A DNA stretch of 64,000 bases from Syntrophotalea carbinolica DSM 2380 (lineage in GTDB: Bacteria > Desulfobacterota > Desulfuromonadia > Desulfuromonadales > Syntrophotaleaceae): contig NC_007498.2 in NCBI RefSeq assembly GCF_000012885.1, positions 2,480,001 through 2,544,000 on the forward strand, given 5' to 3'. The position numbers and the translations under genes are program-made. The notes below the pieces were generated by a model. It searched no databases. It saw only the letters and a program-made list of their open reading frames with translations, and had not been told where the DNA came from. How positions within the stretch are numbered: position 1 is the first letter of the stretch; each line of letters starts with the position of its first letter. Below, piece by piece: positions 29,412 to 37,470 of the stretch.

Positions 29412-29828
29412 TCACCAGCATCCTGCCTGCGCTGCATTTCTTGCCCCGGCCTGATTGATCGACATAGTCCCACAGTCATCCCCGGCCTGTCCTGCCTGCG
29501 GTACAGCCTCGAGGATAAAAGATGTCGCATCCGGAGCACCGCCTGCCTGAAAATGAAAACGATAACGTCGGGACTCAATTTCGTTAGCATTGATAATTGT
29601 CACTCCGGTAACCATGTCCTGCACATCGAGACCCGCATATGTATTATTACGGGTATAATGACGTTCCAAACGTTGGGCCATCTCCGTAAGAAGACCTTTT
29701 GCAGCAGCACGGTTAGTTCGCAGAATATGTTGATTGTAAATCGGTACGGCGATAGCACTCAAAATGCCGATAATCGCAACCGTCACCAACAGTTCGATCA
29801 AACTGAAACCACTCTCTTTTGTTTTCAT
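29412..29828 (-). CDS. pilE: PilE-type minor pilin
   Basis: A 138-residue prepilin with a 7-residue leader ending in Gly before FSLIELLVTVAIIGILSAIAVPIYNQHILRTNRA, Glu5 present. The body fits the PilE family: AAAKGLLTEMAQRLERHYTRNNTYAGL, RYRFHFQ, AVPQAGQAGDDCGTMSINQAG, ending Ala-Gly-Cys-Trp. The two cysteines near the C-terminus (DDCGTM and GCW) are the usual disulphide loop. It is the last gene of the fimT-pilV-pilW-pilX-pilY1-pilE operon and should form part of the pilus-tip initiation complex. Confidence 0.88.
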   Translation of the reverse strand: MKTKESGFSLIELLVTVAIIGILSAIAVPIYNQHILRTNRAAAKGLLTEMAQRLERHYTRNNTYAGLDVQDMVTGVTIINANEIESRRYRFHFQAGGAPDATSFILEAVPQAGQAGDDCGTMSINQAGARNAAQAGCW

Positions 29829-29877: not shown

Positions 29878-32800
29878 TCATCGTATCTGTCGCCAGGATG
29901 AGCGTCCCAGGAAACTACCGTCACCGGGTTTTTCCGTTGTCGTTTCGATAGTACCGGAGGAGGTACTCGACAATTTGTATTCCTTCGTTCCCGCAGAAAT
30001 TACACCGGGGGTCGTAATGATGCCGCTTTGAGAACGTTTTCCGCTGACCGGAACTTTAACTTCTTTGCCATCGATCTCCACGGTAACATAATCCCCTTCG
30101 TCAAATAGATCATCACCATCGAGATCAAAAACGCTGTAGGTAACCCGTCCTCCGGTGAGGGGATCTACCTCATACAACCAACCGGTCCCGCCGAATTCGC
30201 AAGGATTTCCTGACGGTACAACCGAAGTGTAAACCAGATGATCGCCAATCAACAACGGCGAATCGACGACCCTTTCGCCTTCCGCACCGTTTATCGGGGA
30301 AACCATATCCATGTACCAGCCTTTCACATCGGAACCGTAGACCACATCGTAGTCCGAAATAACCCGGAGATCGTAATCGAAGGCATTGAGCTCTACAAGA
30401 ATGGATTGTTCCACGAGAACGCTACGATCAGTTTCAGCGATCTGAGCGTTGTTATCACGGCTGTCTCGAATACCGTAAAAACTTTGTACCGGCGGATTTG
30501 TCCCCACCACATTATCAAACTTTTCAAAATATTGCCCGGTACCAAAATAGACCATGACCTCGACACTATTTCCATTCGGACCGTATCCTACATTGGGCCG
30601 ACTGGTAATCGGCTGAATTTCCCCCGAGGGTCCCTTGGCTGTAAATAAAGGCATATAAGTACTGCCCTTTTTTAGAGCAATCACCCAACTATTGATATTG
30701 GTTGCACTGACATCAAATTTCCACATATTGCCATGCAGGTCGCCGGCATATATGGCATCAACGATACGGTCCCCGTCATAATCAACAGGCGCTGGGGTCG
30801 CTAAACCATTCGGTTGAGCCGAACTCCCGGTGCCTGTATCGATCTTTTTGATCAAAGCTCCCGTCTCCAGATCGACGATATAAAGGGCAGCTGTATAGTT
30901 AGTACTGTTGTAGCCATTACCGAACACGGCAGCCCATCTACCGTTGGCCATGCGGACGATATAGGCCTGGCCGATAGTATAGCCTAGATCCGTATCGGCG
31001 TATTCCCACAGGATGTTATCTTCGGTAAAGCTGTCCGGTTCGGTAACATCGAGAGCGAAAACCGACTTACCACCCGCACCCAACGTGCCGACGAGAACGG
31101 TTCTCCATTCTGGAATACTATCACCGGAAATATCGATATAGGCATCGGTCGCCCGGGGGGAGCCGTCGACATACATTTGGTGTTCGTAAGTCGGATCGGT
31201 AAGGGCGCTCAGATTTGGAAAGACACCGAGAGGAACATAGGCAAACTTCTCTTCCCCGTTTCCGGCATCAAAAGCGTGTAACATACCGTCGTTAGCACCC
31301 ACATACAACATTTTGGGGCGGTTTTGGTAAACGGCCGATTCCCGGTAGCTAAGATAGGTTGACCCTTCCAGATCCGGAAGATCGCCGTAACCATAATTTT
31401 GCGTACCGACAAACCACGGATCCGAATTAACGATATCCCCCAATACACTATCACGATTCCTGAAAGGACCACCGTATTTTTGCTCTTCAGACTGGTCTCC
31501 GCGCAAATAATTCAATCGTTCTTTCCCCAAGCCATCCACTGCGCCCGAACCGTTTTGATTCAGCAGGGCTTGCTGAGTTGTATGCAATTCGGTCGTTGTC
31601 GTCCAGGTAAAAGGAACGCCCTGCGGAGTTCCGGATACATCAGGGTTGAGAGTATAAATATCCCTATTGATGGGCAAGGGCAACAACTCTGCCGCATCCC
31701 AGACAGGCAAACCGACGGAGCCATCTTCGTTCACTGGATAAGCCAGCAACTGTCCGAACCAATCACCGCTCTCAAACCGCGCCTGGTAGATAAGGGTATC
31801 GGTATCGAGCCGGGTAGAGTTGGTTGCGATAGCGGCAGCCGAAGACGTCATCCCAAGAATTTCGCTAAAAGCTTCGGACAATTGGTCTGTAAGGGTCAAG
31901 GCATTGGTAACCAGAAAATAGTTATCCGGTTGTCCATCGCTATCAGCATCCCATTCCCCGTCATCGGGCAACCCATTTTCGTCCAGGTCTTTAAAATTCC
32001 CGTATTTCGCAGCGTACCACAGTGGGTTTTTCAGGAAAAAAGCGGAATTATTCCCCGAAACCTTAAAGGAACGGCTTGCCGTAAGGGGCAACGGTTTATC
32101 ATCGTCCCAGTCAACACCGATAGTCCCCCCGGGAGGAGTGTCGAGAAAATAGTCAGGATCGGAAGCTTCAGTGGTATCCACATCCCGCACTTCGAGATAT
32201 GTCCCGTCCGCTGTAGTCCCGGATATAACATATCCCATGTGCTGAATAATCGACCCAGCGGCATATGTCGATTCCACATTTATTTTTACCGTATCGCTAT
32301 CGATAACTTCATAGGTGTATTCGACTATCGCATCCATATCATGGTCAGCACCCTGTTCAACGTCTTCAAAATTGATACGGAATTTTCCCGACGTTGACGA
32401 CAGGCTTTCGACATAAAAATCGACGATGGAGTTGGTCGGTTGGAACGATCCTTGAGTCGCGTTTATCGAATACCCTCCTACCGATTTGGCAAAAGGGACC
32501 AAGGTTATCGTACTATCACCCACCGGAATCTTGATCTGGGGCAAAGGCGACGCAAGAGCCACGGCAAAGGTAGTCATCTTCTGCTCTTCCTCGGCATCGC
32601 TGATGTCATTTTGATTGGCGAATAGGCTGATACTTCCGGCATAATATCCACCGTGCTTAGTCGGTTCTTCCGGAGCAAGGCCGCGCACGGAACCGAAGCT
32701 TTCGGCCGCTTTCGGAGTCGGCGCCCCATCATACACCGAACCCGATTGCCCAATAAAAATCTTTTGATCCGAGCCGTATTCATGACCCCATATCTTTTGC

Positions 32801-34692
32801 CCCAGAGAATCGACGTCGAGATCACTGACATCACCGGAAAAAGAGTTAAAATAACTCCCGGGCAATTGTCCGGTGTCATAGGAGGGGTTGATATCACTAA
32901 TAATAAGCTGGAAAGGTTTTGCACAATATTCATTATTTCCCTCGGCAAAGGGATCGTCCCAACTCGCCAAAGGCAAGCCCAAGGTAGCATCATCGTTGCC
33001 GCTGGAAGCAATATCAAACGCGGAGGTCGGACTGCCTTTGCCGGAAAAATATCGCACGCCTTCATACATCATCTCGGCAATAGGATTCCCCCACATCCGA
33101 CATTCGCCATCGTTGATGGGGCGAGTAGTGATCCATCCGCAATTTTGATTATAAGTATATCCGGTAGAAAATCCGATGGTTCTCAGCTTATCGATGGTCT
33201 TGACAATGCCATTAACCGAGGTGAATTGACCGGTTTCGGCATCAACCTCATCGGAGAAACTCCCCATTTTTTTGCGCAACACACCACCAGAGGTGTTTTT
33301 TGTATAGGATCCCGTCAACAGACCGAACAACATTTGATCGTCTTCACCATACTCCTGCAACAATCCTGCAGGTTTGTAATGGTCGACACTGCTTGCATCG
33401 GTATATTGGCGGCAATTACTTTCTAACATGCCGCTTTTACACACCTCTACCCGCACGGCATAGTCTGTGATGACGGAGTTGCTGGTGCTCACATCATATA
33501 CCGATTGAATTAACCCGGAATAGGATGCGGCAGGTACAATTTGCCATGAACTTCCGGAATCGGGTCCGGACCACCATAGCTCATAGCTGTCCGAGCCGGA
33601 AGCTTCCTGGTGACGAAATTCCACTTTGTGGTTGCCACTACCCAGGGATATCGTGCCGACACCGGAAGGGGGCACAGTGGAAGAGGCACCGTGTCCACTA
33701 TACCATCCGGTCACCACCGTGCCATCGACAAGGACTTCTACCGCATCGTCCCCGTTAACCGAAAAAGAATAGGTTCCCGCCGTAGATACGACCAGGTAAC
33801 CCTTAAAAACCGTAAGGTAATAATCATCGGAACCAAAGGGGTTTCCACTACCATCGATCAAGGAAACCGATTGAGATCCCTGCAAATGACTCGCAGTAGC
33901 AAATTGATTCACCAGATCTTCATAAGCCGAATGGCTCGCGGGATAACCCGTATAACTGGTACCTGACGATTCGAGACTACTATCGAGAACTGGCTGTTCC
34001 TTGGAAACCCACTCCCAGATGCGATGGCTGCTGTTTGGGAGAACCCTCAGTCGCGGAATAGTATCATCGGCACGCAGAGTCGTATTGCCGAACAAATGAC
34101 GATTACCGCTATCCGGCAGAGCCAGGGGTGTATAATCCTGAATATCATAACCATCGACGGCAACACTGGCGTATTCCTTCCCCCAACTGTGGGCATCCTG
34201 GGGGACATGCGAACGCTCCAGGACTGTTTCAGTGGCGGTATCAACCGAGCGATAACCGCCATAAAGAACTTTTCGCAGAGCATCGATGCGGGCGGTGGTC
34301 AGATAATTGAGGAAATCTCCGCTCCACTCATTCGATCCGGAGCAGGTTTTATCGGCAGAGACACTGCTGGGGTCAAACCTTGCGGGACTCGCCGAGCCAT
34401 CATATTCGTAACACTTGTAAGAATCAAAATAACCGAAATATTCGATGGCGGGATCGTAGCGGATATCCAATTTACCATCGTTATTGAGATCCGATGCATC
34501 GTTGTAGGCTTCGTAATACAGCTTATGATCCCGCCCCATAACAATCAGATTCAGGGGAGGAACCTCCTGGGTCAAAAACAGGGGGGACTGGGCAACCTCA
34601 CCGGCAACGGCAGACGTTGTCATACCTGCAACCCAAAGTACCAAGAGTCCCTCAAAAAGCAATGTTTGCCATTTATTTACAGTGAATCTCAT
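29878..34692 (-). CDS. pilY1: PilY1-family pilus tip protein with PA14-like insertion
   Basis: A very large exported protein of 1604 residues. It has a signal peptide (LLFEGLLVLWVAGMTTSAVA) and an N-terminal region with a calcium-type motif (DLNNDGKLD, about residue 70). A PA14-like beta domain follows at about residues 285-390 (DDYYLTVFKGYLVV, GTYSFSVNGDDAVEVLVDG, HKVEFRHQEASGSDSYELWWSG). The C-terminal half is a Neisseria PilC/PilY1-type beta-propeller (KMLYVGANDGMLHAFDAGNG, GSPRATDAYID, DYDGDRIVDAIYAGDLHGNMWKFD). A calcium-loop-like DLDGDDLFDEGD lies near the end. The start at 34692 has GAGGAG upstream. No vWA domain with MIDAS motif was recognised. Expected role: tip adhesin and regulator of extension and retraction. 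Confidence 0.9.
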   Translation of the reverse strand: MRFTVNKWQTLLFEGLLVLWVAGMTTSAVAGEVAQSPLFLTQEVPPLNLIVMGRDHKLYYEAYNDASDLNNDGKLDIRYDPAIEYFGYFDSYKCYEYDGSASPARFDPSSVSADKTCSGSNEWSGDFLNYLTTARIDALRKVLYGGYRSVDTATETVLERSHVPQDAHSWGKEYASVAVDGYDIQDYTPLALPDSGNRHLFGNTTLRADDTIPRLRVLPNSSHRIWEWVSKEQPVLDSSLESSGTSYTGYPASHSAYEDLVNQFATASHLQGSQSVSLIDGSGNPFGSDDYYLTVFKGYLVVSTAGTYSFSVNGDDAVEVLVDGTVVTGWYSGHGASSTVPPSGVGTISLGSGNHKVEFRHQEASGSDSYELWWSGPDSGSSWQIVPAASYSGLIQSVYDVSTSNSVITDYAVRVEVCKSGMLESNCRQYTDASSVDHYKPAGLLQEYGEDDQMLFGLLTGSYTKNTSGGVLRKKMGSFSDEVDAETGQFTSVNGIVKTIDKLRTIGFSTGYTYNQNCGWITTRPINDGECRMWGNPIAEMMYEGVRYFSGKGSPTSAFDIASSGNDDATLGLPLASWDDPFAEGNNEYCAKPFQLIISDINPSYDTGQLPGSYFNSFSGDVSDLDVDSLGQKIWGHEYGSDQKIFIGQSGSVYDGAPTPKAAESFGSVRGLAPEEPTKHGGYYAGSISLFANQNDISDAEEEQKMTTFAVALASPLPQIKIPVGDSTITLVPFAKSVGGYSINATQGSFQPTNSIVDFYVESLSSTSGKFRINFEDVEQGADHDMDAIVEYTYEVIDSDTVKINVESTYAAGSIIQHMGYVISGTTADGTYLEVRDVDTTEASDPDYFLDTPPGGTIGVDWDDDKPLPLTASRSFKVSGNNSAFFLKNPLWYAAKYGNFKDLDENGLPDDGEWDADSDGQPDNYFLVTNALTLTDQLSEAFSEILGMTSSAAAIATNSTRLDTDTLIYQARFESGDWFGQLLAYPVNEDGSVGLPVWDAAELLPLPINRDIYTLNPDVSGTPQGVPFTWTTTTELHTTQQALLNQNGSGAVDGLGKERLNYLRGDQSEEQKYGGPFRNRDSVLGDIVNSDPWFVGTQNYGYGDLPDLEGSTYLSYRESAVYQNRPKMLYVGANDGMLHAFDAGNGEEKFAYVPLGVFPNLSALTDPTYEHQMYVDGSPRATDAYIDISGDSIPEWRTVLVGTLGAGGKSVFALDVTEPDSFTEDNILWEYADTDLGYTIGQAYIVRMANGRWAAVFGNGYNSTNYTAALYIVDLETGALIKKIDTGTGSSAQPNGLATPAPVDYDGDRIVDAIYAGDLHGNMWKFDVSATNINSWVIALKKGSTYMPLFTAKGPSGEIQPITSRPNVGYGPNGNSVEVMVYFGTGQYFEKFDNVVGTNPPVQSFYGIRDSRDNNAQIAETDRSVLVEQSILVELNAFDYDLRVISDYDVVYGSDVKGWYMDMVSPINGAEGERVVDSPLLIGDHLVYTSVVPSGNPCEFGGTGWLYEVDPLTGGRVTYSVFDLDGDDLFDEGDYVTVEIDGKEVKVPVSGKRSQSGIITTPGVISAGTKEYKLSSTSSGTIETTTEKPGDGSFLGRSSWRQIR

Positions 34693-34768
34693 CGCATATC
34701 TCCTCTGCTCCGATAACACGGACCGCCCATCGATCCCTATCCGCAGATGCTATACATAATCCTTCGGT

Positions 34769-35305
34769 CTATTTTTTAAATGTGGTCTGCAGTATAACCG
34801 TCGCAGTGGAGGCACCACCCACCCCGCGGGCGGTCACTCTATAGACCCGGTTGTCGGCAACCGCCTCACCTGCAACCAGCGATCGGTTGTTGCCGGTTTC
34901 AAGTTCTCCGAGATCCTCGACAATATACCGGGGTTGCTCCGCAACTCCATCGATAGTATTGGCCCCGGAAATAATACGGGAATCATTTTCATCCCAATTG
35001 ATAAGTTCCCAACGGGCCGTTGTCCCGGCGGTGGTCGGCTGATAGAGACCACCGCTCCCGTTAAAAGACGGAAGAGCCGCACTCTCCAGATAATATTCGG
35101 CGTCGCGCAATGCGGCTTCGGCAGCCTGGAACGCTAAGTTGCGATTGCTCATATTGCCGGCCATGCGTTCTTCCAGAACGCTGCCCTGCATCCCCGCCAG
35201 GGCAAGTAGCGACAGAACCAGCAAAATAACCAGACTGGTAACGAGAGCCGCACCTTTCTCGCTTTTTCCGGAACCAACATTCAATGGTTGAACATATTTT
35301 CTCAT
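34769..35305 (-). CDS. pilX: PilX-type minor pilin assembly protein
   Basis: A 178-residue protein with a hydrophobic N-terminal helix preceded by a charged leader: GSGKSEKGAALVTSLVILLVLSLLALAGMQGSVLEERMAGN. It lacks a Phe/Glu5 prepilin site; the GAALVTSLVILLVLSLL pattern with the following ERMAGNMSNRNLAFQAAEAALRDAE is diagnostic of PilX. The C-terminal part ends ARGVGGASTATVILQTTFKK, another PilX trait. It sits between pilW and pilY1 in the usual order and should join the tip complex that primes pilus assembly. Confidence 0.88.
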   Translation of the reverse strand: MRKYVQPLNVGSGKSEKGAALVTSLVILLVLSLLALAGMQGSVLEERMAGNMSNRNLAFQAAEAALRDAEYYLESAALPSFNGSGGLYQPTTAGTTARWELINWDENDSRIISGANTIDGVAEQPRYIVEDLGELETGNNRSLVAGEAVADNRVYRVTARGVGGASTATVILQTTFKK

Positions 35306-35329: not shown

Positions 35330-36391
35330 TCAGGGTAAACGGTTGCGCAGAGCCACAGTCGTAGTAAAGACCTGGCGCAAGCGACGATCATTAGCAGCCG
35401 CGATATTCGTTCCATTTAACGTATAGGCTGCTGCATCGACTTCGCCACGAAGAACTTCATCCATACTCGCCACGAGTAAGCCGACGCGTACAGCCAGAAC
35501 CGTTGCCCAATCCGCAACCCCGGCAGCCGTTACATAACTATCGATATCGCGATCGCTATCGGCGTCGATGCCATAGGTAATCTGCATCGATTCGATACCA
35601 CCGACAATCTCCTGTGCTACCCCAGAACTAACCTTATAATAAAGACCGGGCTCGCCATCGGCATTCGTACCAATAAAATAGACATAGGTGGTCATTTTAG
35701 CGATTTCGGCCCCAGGCCCGAAGGAATGGCCGAGATCCTTGGTCGCATTGCCGGGGGAACCAACCCCGGAGTTATGAACAACGTCTGCTTTAATCGACCC
35801 ACCACCGTCGGTATAATTCGTGACCTGAAATACCGCTGCAGCCTGACAATCGGAGACCATGACGATATCAAAATCGGCAATCGGGGCCGGATTAATCCCA
35901 CCGGTGATCTTAATGTCGGCGGAGGTATCGGGCATCTGCTCGACGATTTCTACCATCACATCACTATCCATCTTGCGGAGAATAAGAACATCTGAACCGA
36001 TTATGGGTGTAATACCCATAGCTACAAAATCGGCCGCGTTCGGATCGGCAACATCGTCATAACCTTCTACCGCACGATCGAAATCAAACAGGGCTCCGGC
36101 TCCGGCATTCAGGGTATTGGTTACCGATACCCCGCTCCCCGCACAGCCTCTGTATCCGGTCTGTCGTGTATCACGGGTTAAGAACTCCATGGCAAAGCGC
36201 CCGTTCTCCTGCAAATTGGACAGTTCCTCCTCAAATCGGTAGGAGGTCGTAGTACTGATAAATATCCGGTATACTCCCCCGAGTAACAACATGCCTATAA
36301 GCATCGCTATCATCATTTCGATCAGCGAAATTCCCCTCGAGTTGCCAGTGATCGTAAACCCTATCGGCATCTTCATTCCTCTATCTTTCAT
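35330..36391 (-). CDS. pilW: PilW-type minor pilin
   Basis: A 353-residue prepilin. The leader ends before ISLIEMMIAMLIGMLLLGGVYRIF, with Glu5 in place and Ile instead of Phe at the mature N-terminus. It continues TTTSYRFEEELSNLQENGRFAMEFLTRDTRQTGYRGC, the PilW hallmark, and ends with a segment like VRVGLLVAS and RLRQVFTTTVALRNRLP. The ATG at 36391 overlaps the pilV stop (ATGA). Later in-frame ATGs at 36376 and 36370 follow an AGAGGA site and are also possible. Part of the minor pilin tip complex. Confidence 0.9.
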   Translation of the reverse strand: MKDRGMKMPIGFTITGNSRGISLIEMMIAMLIGMLLLGGVYRIFISTTTSYRFEEELSNLQENGRFAMEFLTRDTRQTGYRGCAGSGVSVTNTLNAGAGALFDFDRAVEGYDDVADPNAADFVAMGITPIIGSDVLILRKMDSDVMVEIVEQMPDTSADIKITGGINPAPIADFDIVMVSDCQAAAVFQVTNYTDGGGSIKADVVHNSGVGSPGNATKDLGHSFGPGAEIAKMTTYVYFIGTNADGEPGLYYKVSSGVAQEIVGGIESMQITYGIDADSDRDIDSYVTAAGVADWATVLAVRVGLLVASMDEVLRGEVDAAAYTLNGTNIAAANDRRLRQVFTTTVALRNRLP

Positions 36392-36855
36392 AAAATCGTC
36401 TCAACGGTAATGAGTTGCGGGTCTCCCTTTTCGTCCCAGCGCACTTGAATAGTGGCACGGATACGACCATTACCGAGATTAGTCATGGTAATTGCTCCCT
36501 CGCCGTTGGGAAGATCATCTACGCTACCTAACCAACCGGTTAGATCCTGTTGCACCAGTGTGGGCAACCCACCATCCGGGGTATTACCAAAGTCGATTTC
36601 ATAGGGCCAGGAAGACAGACGTGCTGTTTCCCGATTGGCTCGCATACGCTCAACAATGTCGTAGGCATAGAGGGTAGCCTGCGAACGTTGCAATGCACTG
36701 TAGTTGGTCGTAACGCCACGGGTCTGAACACCGGCAAGCCCAATAAGCCCGATCGATAGAATCAATAAAGCCACCAGAACCTCGATAAGGGAAAAACCTG
36801 GGGGCCCGGAGGGTGTTCCGTCGACTTCAAATACGGATTTATCGATCATGGACAT
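36388..36855 (-). CDS. pilV: PilV-type minor pilin
   Basis: A 155-residue prepilin. The leader MSMIDKSVFEVDGTPSGPPG is followed by FSLIEVLVALLILSIGLIGLAGVQTRGV, the typical PilV start with Glu5 and the L-I-G-L-A-G-x-Q pattern. The middle has RSQATLYAYDIVERMRANRETAR, also conserved in PilV. GGGGAG lies upstream of the ATG. It overlaps the fimT stop by 10 bp and the pilW start by 4 bp. Confidence 0.9.
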   Translation of the reverse strand: MSMIDKSVFEVDGTPSGPPGFSLIEVLVALLILSIGLIGLAGVQTRGVTTNYSALQRSQATLYAYDIVERMRANRETARLSSWPYEIDFGNTPDGGLPTLVQQDLTGWLGSVDDLPNGEGAITMTNLGNGRIRATIQVRWDEKGDPQLITVETIL

Positions 36856-37418
36856 TGGGCAGCTCCCCGGTCGGCTCTAACGCGACCGACAGAATTTATG
36901 ACAATAGAAAAAGCATTGGCGGTACCCCGCTGATCGCACATACGAAAGGTATCGTTCGGAAGCCCTCCTCCCCCGCGGCTGATGCCGTTGGGCAAGTAAC
37001 TGAGGGAATTTGTAAAATTGGCCCCGGTACGCAGCGTCACAAGACCGCCCAAACCGTTATTGACGAACAAAATGGTCTCGGCGGCATCCGGAGCGGCATT
37101 GGCGTTTGGATCGTTAAAAACGATCCAACCCTGTTCCCAGGTCCCTGCACCGCTACAAGTCGCTCCATCGTTGCTCGGACAAATGGTCACCCTGACACCG
37201 CGCTTAATCGCTTCCTGACGAGTCAGATTCAAAGTCCTAACCACTTCGTTGGTCTGTGTCATGAGCCTGTTTGAGAGAACTAATCCCCTGAAAGCAGGCA
37301 CGGCAATAGCCAACAAAATACCTGCCACAACAATGGTTACGATGAGCTCAATGAGGGTAAAGCCGGCCCTGCATAAACCTCTGTCCCTTGAGCTGGGTGA
37401 AACATTTCGTATAGCCAT
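36846..37418 (-). CDS. FimT/GspH-type pseudopilin, first gene of the minor pilin operon
   Basis: A prepilin of 190 residues. The leader ends in Ala-Gly before FTLIELIVTIVVAGILLAIAVPAFRGLVLSNRLMTQTNEVVRTLNLTRQEAIKRGVRVTICPS, the classic FimT/GspH pattern. The tail reads MCDQRGTANAFSIVINSVGRVRAD, again typical of GspH. Two starts are possible: ATG 37418 (GGAGG four bases upstream) and ATG 37445 (GGAGAA eight bases upstream). The shorter one is chosen because a sigma-54-like promoter at 37455-37470 would start transcription at about 37444, inside the longer version. Leader lengths would be 19 or 28 residues. Confidence 0.85.
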   Translation of the reverse strand: MAIRNVSPSSRDRGLCRAGFTLIELIVTIVVAGILLAIAVPAFRGLVLSNRLMTQTNEVVRTLNLTRQEAIKRGVRVTICPSNDGATCSGAGTWEQGWIVFNDPNANAAPDAAETILFVNNGLGGLVTLRTGANFTNSLSYLPNGISRGGGGLPNDTFRMCDQRGTANAFSIVINSVGRVRADRGAAQCP

Positions 37419-37454
37419 GCTGCCTCCGGTAAGCTTGTACTGCATATTATCTTC

Positions 37455-37470
37455 TCCAAAATCCATGCCA
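37455..37470 (-). promoter_or_regulatory. Candidate sigma-54 promoter of the minor pilin operon
   Basis: Minus strand TGGCATGGATTTTGGA differs from the RpoN consensus (TGGCACG-N4-TTGCW) at two of twelve positions, C to T in the -24 box and C to G in the -12 box. Spacing is correct. The adjacent upstream gene encodes an NtrC-family activator with an intact GAFTGA loop. The imperfect -12 element keeps confidence moderate. Confidence 0.5.

Follow-up and report, generated by a model that had tools for sequence, protein, structure and literature searches.

A PA14 domain inserted into a split vWA fold of the type IV pilus tip adhesin PilY1 of Syntrophotalea carbinolica

The PilY1 protein encoded in the stretch of the Syntrophotalea carbinolica genome analysed here (the window, 64,000 nucleotides) contains a PA14 domain that, according to structural models, lies inside a split vWA fold in the N-terminal half of this type IV pilus tip adhesin. 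We think it probable that the domain serves as a calcium-dependent glycan-binding cassette, which the vWA scaffold would display at the tip of the pilus. DUF4114, another domain known from PilY1 proteins, has been suggested to bind EPS. According to a 2026 survey, vWFA and DUF4114 are the only N-terminal domains identified in published PilY1 proteins (PMC13190605), and no published PilY1 with a PA14 domain was found in our literature search, outside which subscription journals and preprints lay. The combination of vWA and PA14 in PilY1 is thus undescribed in the literature searched; any Pfam run will show it.

The protein belongs to the PilY1/PilC family both by its C-terminal PF05567 propeller (194.7 bits), the only match to this profile in a genome-wide search, and by the grouping of its gene with those of FimU, PilV, PilW, PilX and PilE (Table 1). 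These genes follow each other on the minus strand in an operon-like order (FimU/GspH type, PilV, PilW, PilX, PilY1, PilE/ComP-like) that runs out in a terminator-like site, and reading of the sequence upstream of the pilin run points to a sensor kinase and an open reading frame for a sigma-54 type regulator. An alternative GTG start at 34719 would extend pilY1 (29878-34719, minus strand) to 1613 amino acids. According to the Pelobacter carbinolicus genome paper, that genome has a single FimU/PilV/PilW/PilX/PilE/PilY1 set, which differs greatly from those of Geobacter (PMC3543383). The pilin gene beside pilY1 (29412-29828) scores 80 bits against the model of the ComP DNA-uptake-sequence receptor (PF16732).

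Table 1. Features of pilY1 and its neighbours; positions are those of the window, residues those of the 1604-residue PilY1.
Feature	Position	Strand	Basis or remark
Minor pilin FimU/GspH type	36846..37466	minus	PF12019
Minor pilin PilV	36388..36855	minus	TIGR02523, 83.8 bits
Minor pilin PilW	35330..36391	minus	PF16074
Minor pilin PilX	34769..35305	minus	PF13681, PF14341
pilY1	29878..34692	minus	tip adhesin of type IV pili; 1604 aa with ATG start at 34692
Putative signal peptide, residues 1-30	34603..34692	minus	hydrophobic stretch to AVA|GE, by reading
vWA first part (predicted), residues 37-236	33985..34584	minus	AlphaFold2 models, VIA-align vWA matches
EF-hand-like Asp loop D65-ASDLNNDGKL-D76	34465..34500	minus	just after first vWA strand, adjoins degenerate MIDAS (53-57)
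PA14 cassette, residues 238-409 (fold core 246-394)	about 33466-33981	minus	PF07691, fold match, missing from collinear homologues
Asp315-Asp316, at the place of the DcisD pair that binds calcium and the sugar diol in PA14 lectins	33745..33750	minus	aligns with DD of PfLap and MpPA14
Loop E363-ASGSDS-Y370, putative counterpart of lectin loop L11	33583..33606	minus	family consensus E-x-T-GGD-N-Y
Permuted segment W383-QIVPAASYSGLIQSVY-D400	33493..33546	minus	C-terminal end of window cassette; N-terminal end of form B
vWA second part (predicted), residues 410-725	32518..33465	minus	AlphaFold2 models, VIA-align, homologue profile
Beta-sandwich insertion near vWA end, about residues 726-885	32038..32517	minus	strand-rich in both models; collinear in homologues
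C-terminal PilY1 beta-propeller (PF05567), residues 1084-1421	30430..31443	minus	profile match
Minor pilin, PilE/ComP-like	29412..29828	minus	downstream of pilY1; PF16732 80.1 bits, N_methyl
Terminator-like site, 17-bp stem	29353-29317		after PilE/ComP-like gene

An earlier note, made from the sequence, had described residues about 285-390 as PA14-like (window 33520-33840, which encodes residues 285-391), and profile search, predicted fold and comparison with PDB structures all bear this out. A PF07691 search matched residues 274-381 with 26.2 bits (E 7.8e-6, cut-off 24); the isolated cassette reached 30.8 bits against the same cut-off, and a six-frame scan of the 3,665,893-base genome returned the PilY1 domain at 30.7 bits as the only PA14 found. 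An AlphaFold2 model of residues 31-985, built with 66 sequences (mean pLDDT 89.7, pTM 0.82), predicts a PA14 beta-sandwich at residues 246-394, which are numbered 216-364 in the model. In VIA-align comparisons about this region of the model matched the PA14 lectin of an RTX adhesin (6m8m) with Z 14.3, the MpPA14 structures, most of them solved with bound sugars, with Z 13.3-13.7, and the Flo/Epa adhesins with Z 10.5-12.6, the fold being recognised at Z 13-15 across about 122-138 residues. The closest PA14 by both profile (E 1e-10) and fold (Z 15.5) is the ectodomain of an RsgI3-type anti-sigma factor. The unit is wider than the earlier note had it: the fold match covers 246-394, and the gap seen in homologues that lack the domain runs from about 238 or 248 to 409.

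That PA14 is an insertion is visible in those homologues, as some PilY1 proteins of relatives match the N-terminal half on both flanks without any match in the middle. In a scan of named genomes that yielded 79 loci, about eleven are collinear with the window protein up to about residue 240 and again from about residue 405, at ~50-60% identity, and lack the stretch between; proteins without PA14 occur in Legionella, Psychromonas, Methylovulum and Uliginosibacterium, among others. When aligned to a profile made from the PA14-less proteins, almost every PA14-bearing protein has its insertion at one and the same point, about profile position 212 to 215. The vWA-PA14 form was found in Pseudomonas, Xanthomonas, Methylomonas, purple sulfur bacteria and sulfate reducers. 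A metagenome-assembled contig labelled Klebsiella pneumoniae (L104) also bears a PilY1 of this family, and the label looks doubtful. The 66 proteins of the alignment used below are the strongest hits of a query that itself carries PA14, and the 54 of them with the cassette therefore do not measure its prevalence.

The earlier note had further supposed that PA14 takes the place of the vWA domain, which proved wrong, since in the AlphaFold2 models, compared by VIA-align, PA14 is inserted within a split vWA fold. The PilY1 model matches the vWA region of the pilus adhesin SpaC over 217 residues that span model positions 9-921 (Z 14.6), and also ITIH1 (Z 11.6). A homologue without PA14 (L109), modelled separately (pLDDT 87.9), finds its best matches among vWA domains, namely those of PilB of Streptococcus sanguinis (Z 13.3), Mfa5 (12.4), the integrin alpha-1 I domain (12.1) and the vWFA of AhLap (11.6), and the modelled proteins of the family thus have the Rossmann-like vWA fold. 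Going by the models, the N-terminal half of PilY1 folds as a vWA domain that has lost the classical metal site. No MIDAS motif had been recognised at the outset, rightly so: residues 53-57 read GRDHK, where the MIDAS signature DxSxS...T...D would begin, and none of the 66 aligned proteins, whether they carry PA14 or not, has DxSxS. The whole family, PA14-less members included, shares this loss, which the insertion therefore did not cause. Conserved instead is an EF-hand-like loop, D68-x-N/D-x-D72-G73-x-x-D76, in which D68 occurs in 66 of 66 proteins, D72 in 64, G73 in 62 and D76 in 61. The beta-sandwich insertion towards the end of the fold (about 726-885) is likewise present with or without PA14 and shows a weak resemblance (Z 6.6 at best) to beta-sandwich domains of glycosidases. 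This conserved insertion (32038-32517) contains the motif EDVEQGADHDMDA, which possibly binds calcium.

Among known systems, the vWA-bearing PilY1/PilC proteins of Pseudomonas aeruginosa, Legionella pneumophila and Myxococcus xanthus (PilY1.3) share with the window protein the PF05567 propeller, the minor pilin operon and a vWA fold in the N-terminal half, but the window protein differs from them in having PA14 inside the vWA and the conserved EF-hand-like loop in place of the MIDAS DxSxS. The nearest solved vWA folds are also those of pilus tip proteins, the minor pilin PilB of S. sanguinis and SpaC/Mfa5. These are not PilY1 proteins, however, but either pilins or subunits that belong to different types of pilus; we know of no PA14 in PilB, SpaC or Mfa5. 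For the inserted domain, the PA14 lectins of RTX adhesins (MpPA14, MhPA14, 6m8m) have in common with it the fold, the DcisD position, the budding from a split host domain and, as far as a weak sequence alignment shows, the Gly-Asp positions of L11. Here, in contrast, the host is a type IV pilus adhesin, and one segment stands at the C-terminus of the domain in one form of PilY1 cassette (form A) and at the N-terminus in another (form B). The yeast flocculins and Epa adhesins (Flo5, Epa1; Z as above) likewise share the fold and the position of the DcisD calcium lectin site, whereas identity is about 9-12% and the host protein is different. The RsgI3-type ectodomains of Clostridium, closest of all, belong to a membrane-bound anti-sigma factor rather than to a pilus protein.

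The residues that would bind calcium and sugar are the conserved ones of the cassette. Asp stands at the 315 position in 52 of the 54 cassettes and at the 316 position also in 52, and the loop that would correspond to L11 has E363 in 49, G366 in 51 and D368 in 46, its equivalence to the L11 of MpPA14 being drawn from a weak sequence alignment. Direct sequence comparison of the cassette with MpPA14 is indeed weak (E 0.2-0.3; profile E 0.02). Within this loop the window cassette reads ASGSD and so departs from the GGD consensus, and the position of Gln156 of MpPA14, occupied by Ser365 in the window protein, is not conserved among PilY1 cassettes. In MpPA14 the calcium ion that binds the sugar is held by Asp110-Asp111 (cis) together with Gln156, Gly157 and Asp159 of loop 11 (PMC8092209). 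The suggestion of the earlier note that the tip adhesin may bind a glycan has accordingly gained ground: judging from the presence of PA14 and the conservation of the calcium and sugar site residues, we infer that glycan binding is the most likely role, and calcium and sugar binding by the PilY1 domain would be expected. For some PA14 domains no sugar ligand is known, which counts against reading the domain as a lectin.

In the Myxococcus models cited in the 2026 survey, PilY1 occupies the distal tip and its N-terminal domain forms the outermost point of the pilus (PMC13190605). FimU, PilV, PilW and PilX would hold the C-terminal propeller on the pilus, so that by analogy the vWA fold with its budding PA14 would lie outermost and be the first to meet a surface. 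A calcium ion would be held by Asp315-Asp316 and the Gly366-Asp368 loop and would in turn coordinate a vicinal diol of a sugar; the extended pilus could thereby grip a glycan, be it the cell's own or a partner's exopolysaccharide or a cell-wall or plant polysaccharide, before it is retracted.

The main rival to glycan binding holds that PA14 is a real folded insert that binds a protein surface, or else modulates the vWA as a spacer or a mechanical part. The vWA of PilY1 has been discussed as a force sensor (PMC5339237, PMC9210963), and a PA14 located within the vWA chain could be coupled to it mechanically without any ligand; we nonetheless consider such a role rather unlikely, because the conserved positions are those of the calcium and sugar ligands, because many homologues lack the insert altogether, and because a purely structural role would not predict a conserved DcisD. 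Quite improbable is a role as in secreted toxins and proproteins, where PA14 is an N-terminal piece that is removable or controls oligomerisation. The likeness of the fold to the PA14 of protective antigen (Z about 10) speaks for it, but adhesin lectins and the anti-sigma factor ectodomain match better, cleavage in the middle of the vWA would split that fold in two, and no associated translocation component was noticed. That an ordinary beta-rich segment of PilY1 should match PA14 by chance or composition might be suspected from a single-sequence score just 2 bits above the Pfam cut-off. This explanation is already refuted by the match of PF07691 to 25 of 25 PilY1 segments (window and 24 homologues; best E 1.2e-13), together with the confident model and its Z values to PA14 structures.

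The distribution of the PA14 cassette differs between close relatives. A protein with PA14 (L044) and one without (L102) are sisters joined by scaffold branches of 0.11, and those of Methylomonas (L049/L053, with PA14) cluster with that of Methylovulum (L103, without). Mapped on the scaffold tree, lack of PA14 calls for 7 changes, at least 5 of them forced by well-supported branches. The cassette moreover exists in two circularly permuted forms, A (n=25, including the window) and B (n=29), which were assigned by reading the sequences, the assignment of a few divergent ones being less sure. The segment W-x-x-V-P-x-S-x-x-S-G-L-x-x-T-T-Y is the last in form A and the first in form B; a profile of the form A tails finds its matches in the N-terminal part of the form B cassettes, at residues 11-45, the best with E 2e-10 (9 of 29 at about 1e-3 or better), as against a best E of 0.37 among 580 shuffled sequences. 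Permutation relative to the Pfam PA14 model found no such support: a cassette re-joined in canonical order scored no higher, and support for the permutation is thus confined to the comparison of form A with form B.

Form A requires 11 changes on the scaffold tree, of which 9 are forced, and form B requires 13, of which 12 are forced, as compared with 6 each (1 forced) on the PA14 tree. Across the 107 columns of the PA14 alignment, the scaffold tree fares 393 log units worse and is rejected. Five scaffold segments of equal length also reject the tree of the rest of the gene, with smaller log-likelihood losses of 79-205, so that the conflict between trees is in itself no proof of exchange. Exchange of cassettes between pilY1 genes is the reading that fits these sequence comparisons best, although the PA14 alignment is short.

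Other loops of the vWA fold are used as well. Five Desulfobacterota homologues (L147-L151) carry a PA14 with a DD motif in a second loop that comes earlier in the chain, at about position 142 of the scaffold profile and close to window residue 176; it was recognised by a profile of the PilY1 PA14 cassettes (E 2e-13 to 1e-24) and by the visible motif; Pfam at E 0.01 did not report these inserts. Most of the five also have a GGD-like loop. In the PilY1 of an Aeromonadaceae metagenome-assembled genome (L098, open reading frame residues about 225-400), a domain resembling the glycogen-binding type CBM48 (AMPK1_CBM; 23.8 bits, below threshold) occupies a third loop near window residue 217. The repeated use of vWA loops by carbohydrate-binding folds argues for the display of a ligand-binding domain, as has been described for RTX adhesins, where ligand-binding domains budding out of split domains count as a recognised sign (PMC12077191).

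Further additions to the N-terminal half were seen in homologues. In an order-level relative (L033; G032:C1:1995500-2003500), whose PilY1 is ~60-65% identical, more than 500 extra residues with three MopE metal-binding motifs (PF11617) precede vWA-PA14, and two proteins from metagenome-assembled genomes (L101, L056) bear long, stalk-like N-terminal extensions of the pilus tip protein, which contain four InlB B-repeat-like domains (PF18998) or three Calx-beta domains (PF03160). For other large inserts in this half (L113, L127, L129-L131, L142, L143, L152, L153) no Pfam family was found; several of them (among L113, L127, L129-L131, L152 and L153) share a GNYxLWAxxExxQC-like motif.

Altogether, the presence, absence or rearrangement of the module in related bacteria suggests a swappable grip. 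It is plausible, and in our judgement evenly balanced, that the vWA half acts as a docking scaffold for exchangeable glycan-binding cassettes, which would accept PA14 in at least two loops and a CBM48-like domain in a third, and whose main cassette would have been gained or lost several times, permuted and exchanged between distant bacteria from one pilY1 gene to another; in this way pili could switch their sugar target by recombination. The 54 cassettes and the natural siblings without PA14 (L044 versus L102; Methylomonas L049/L053 versus Methylovulum L103) offer a ready-made comparison. What type IV pilus tips bind is a long-standing question, which a separable, conserved and lectin-like domain whose calcium site can be recognised makes directly testable.
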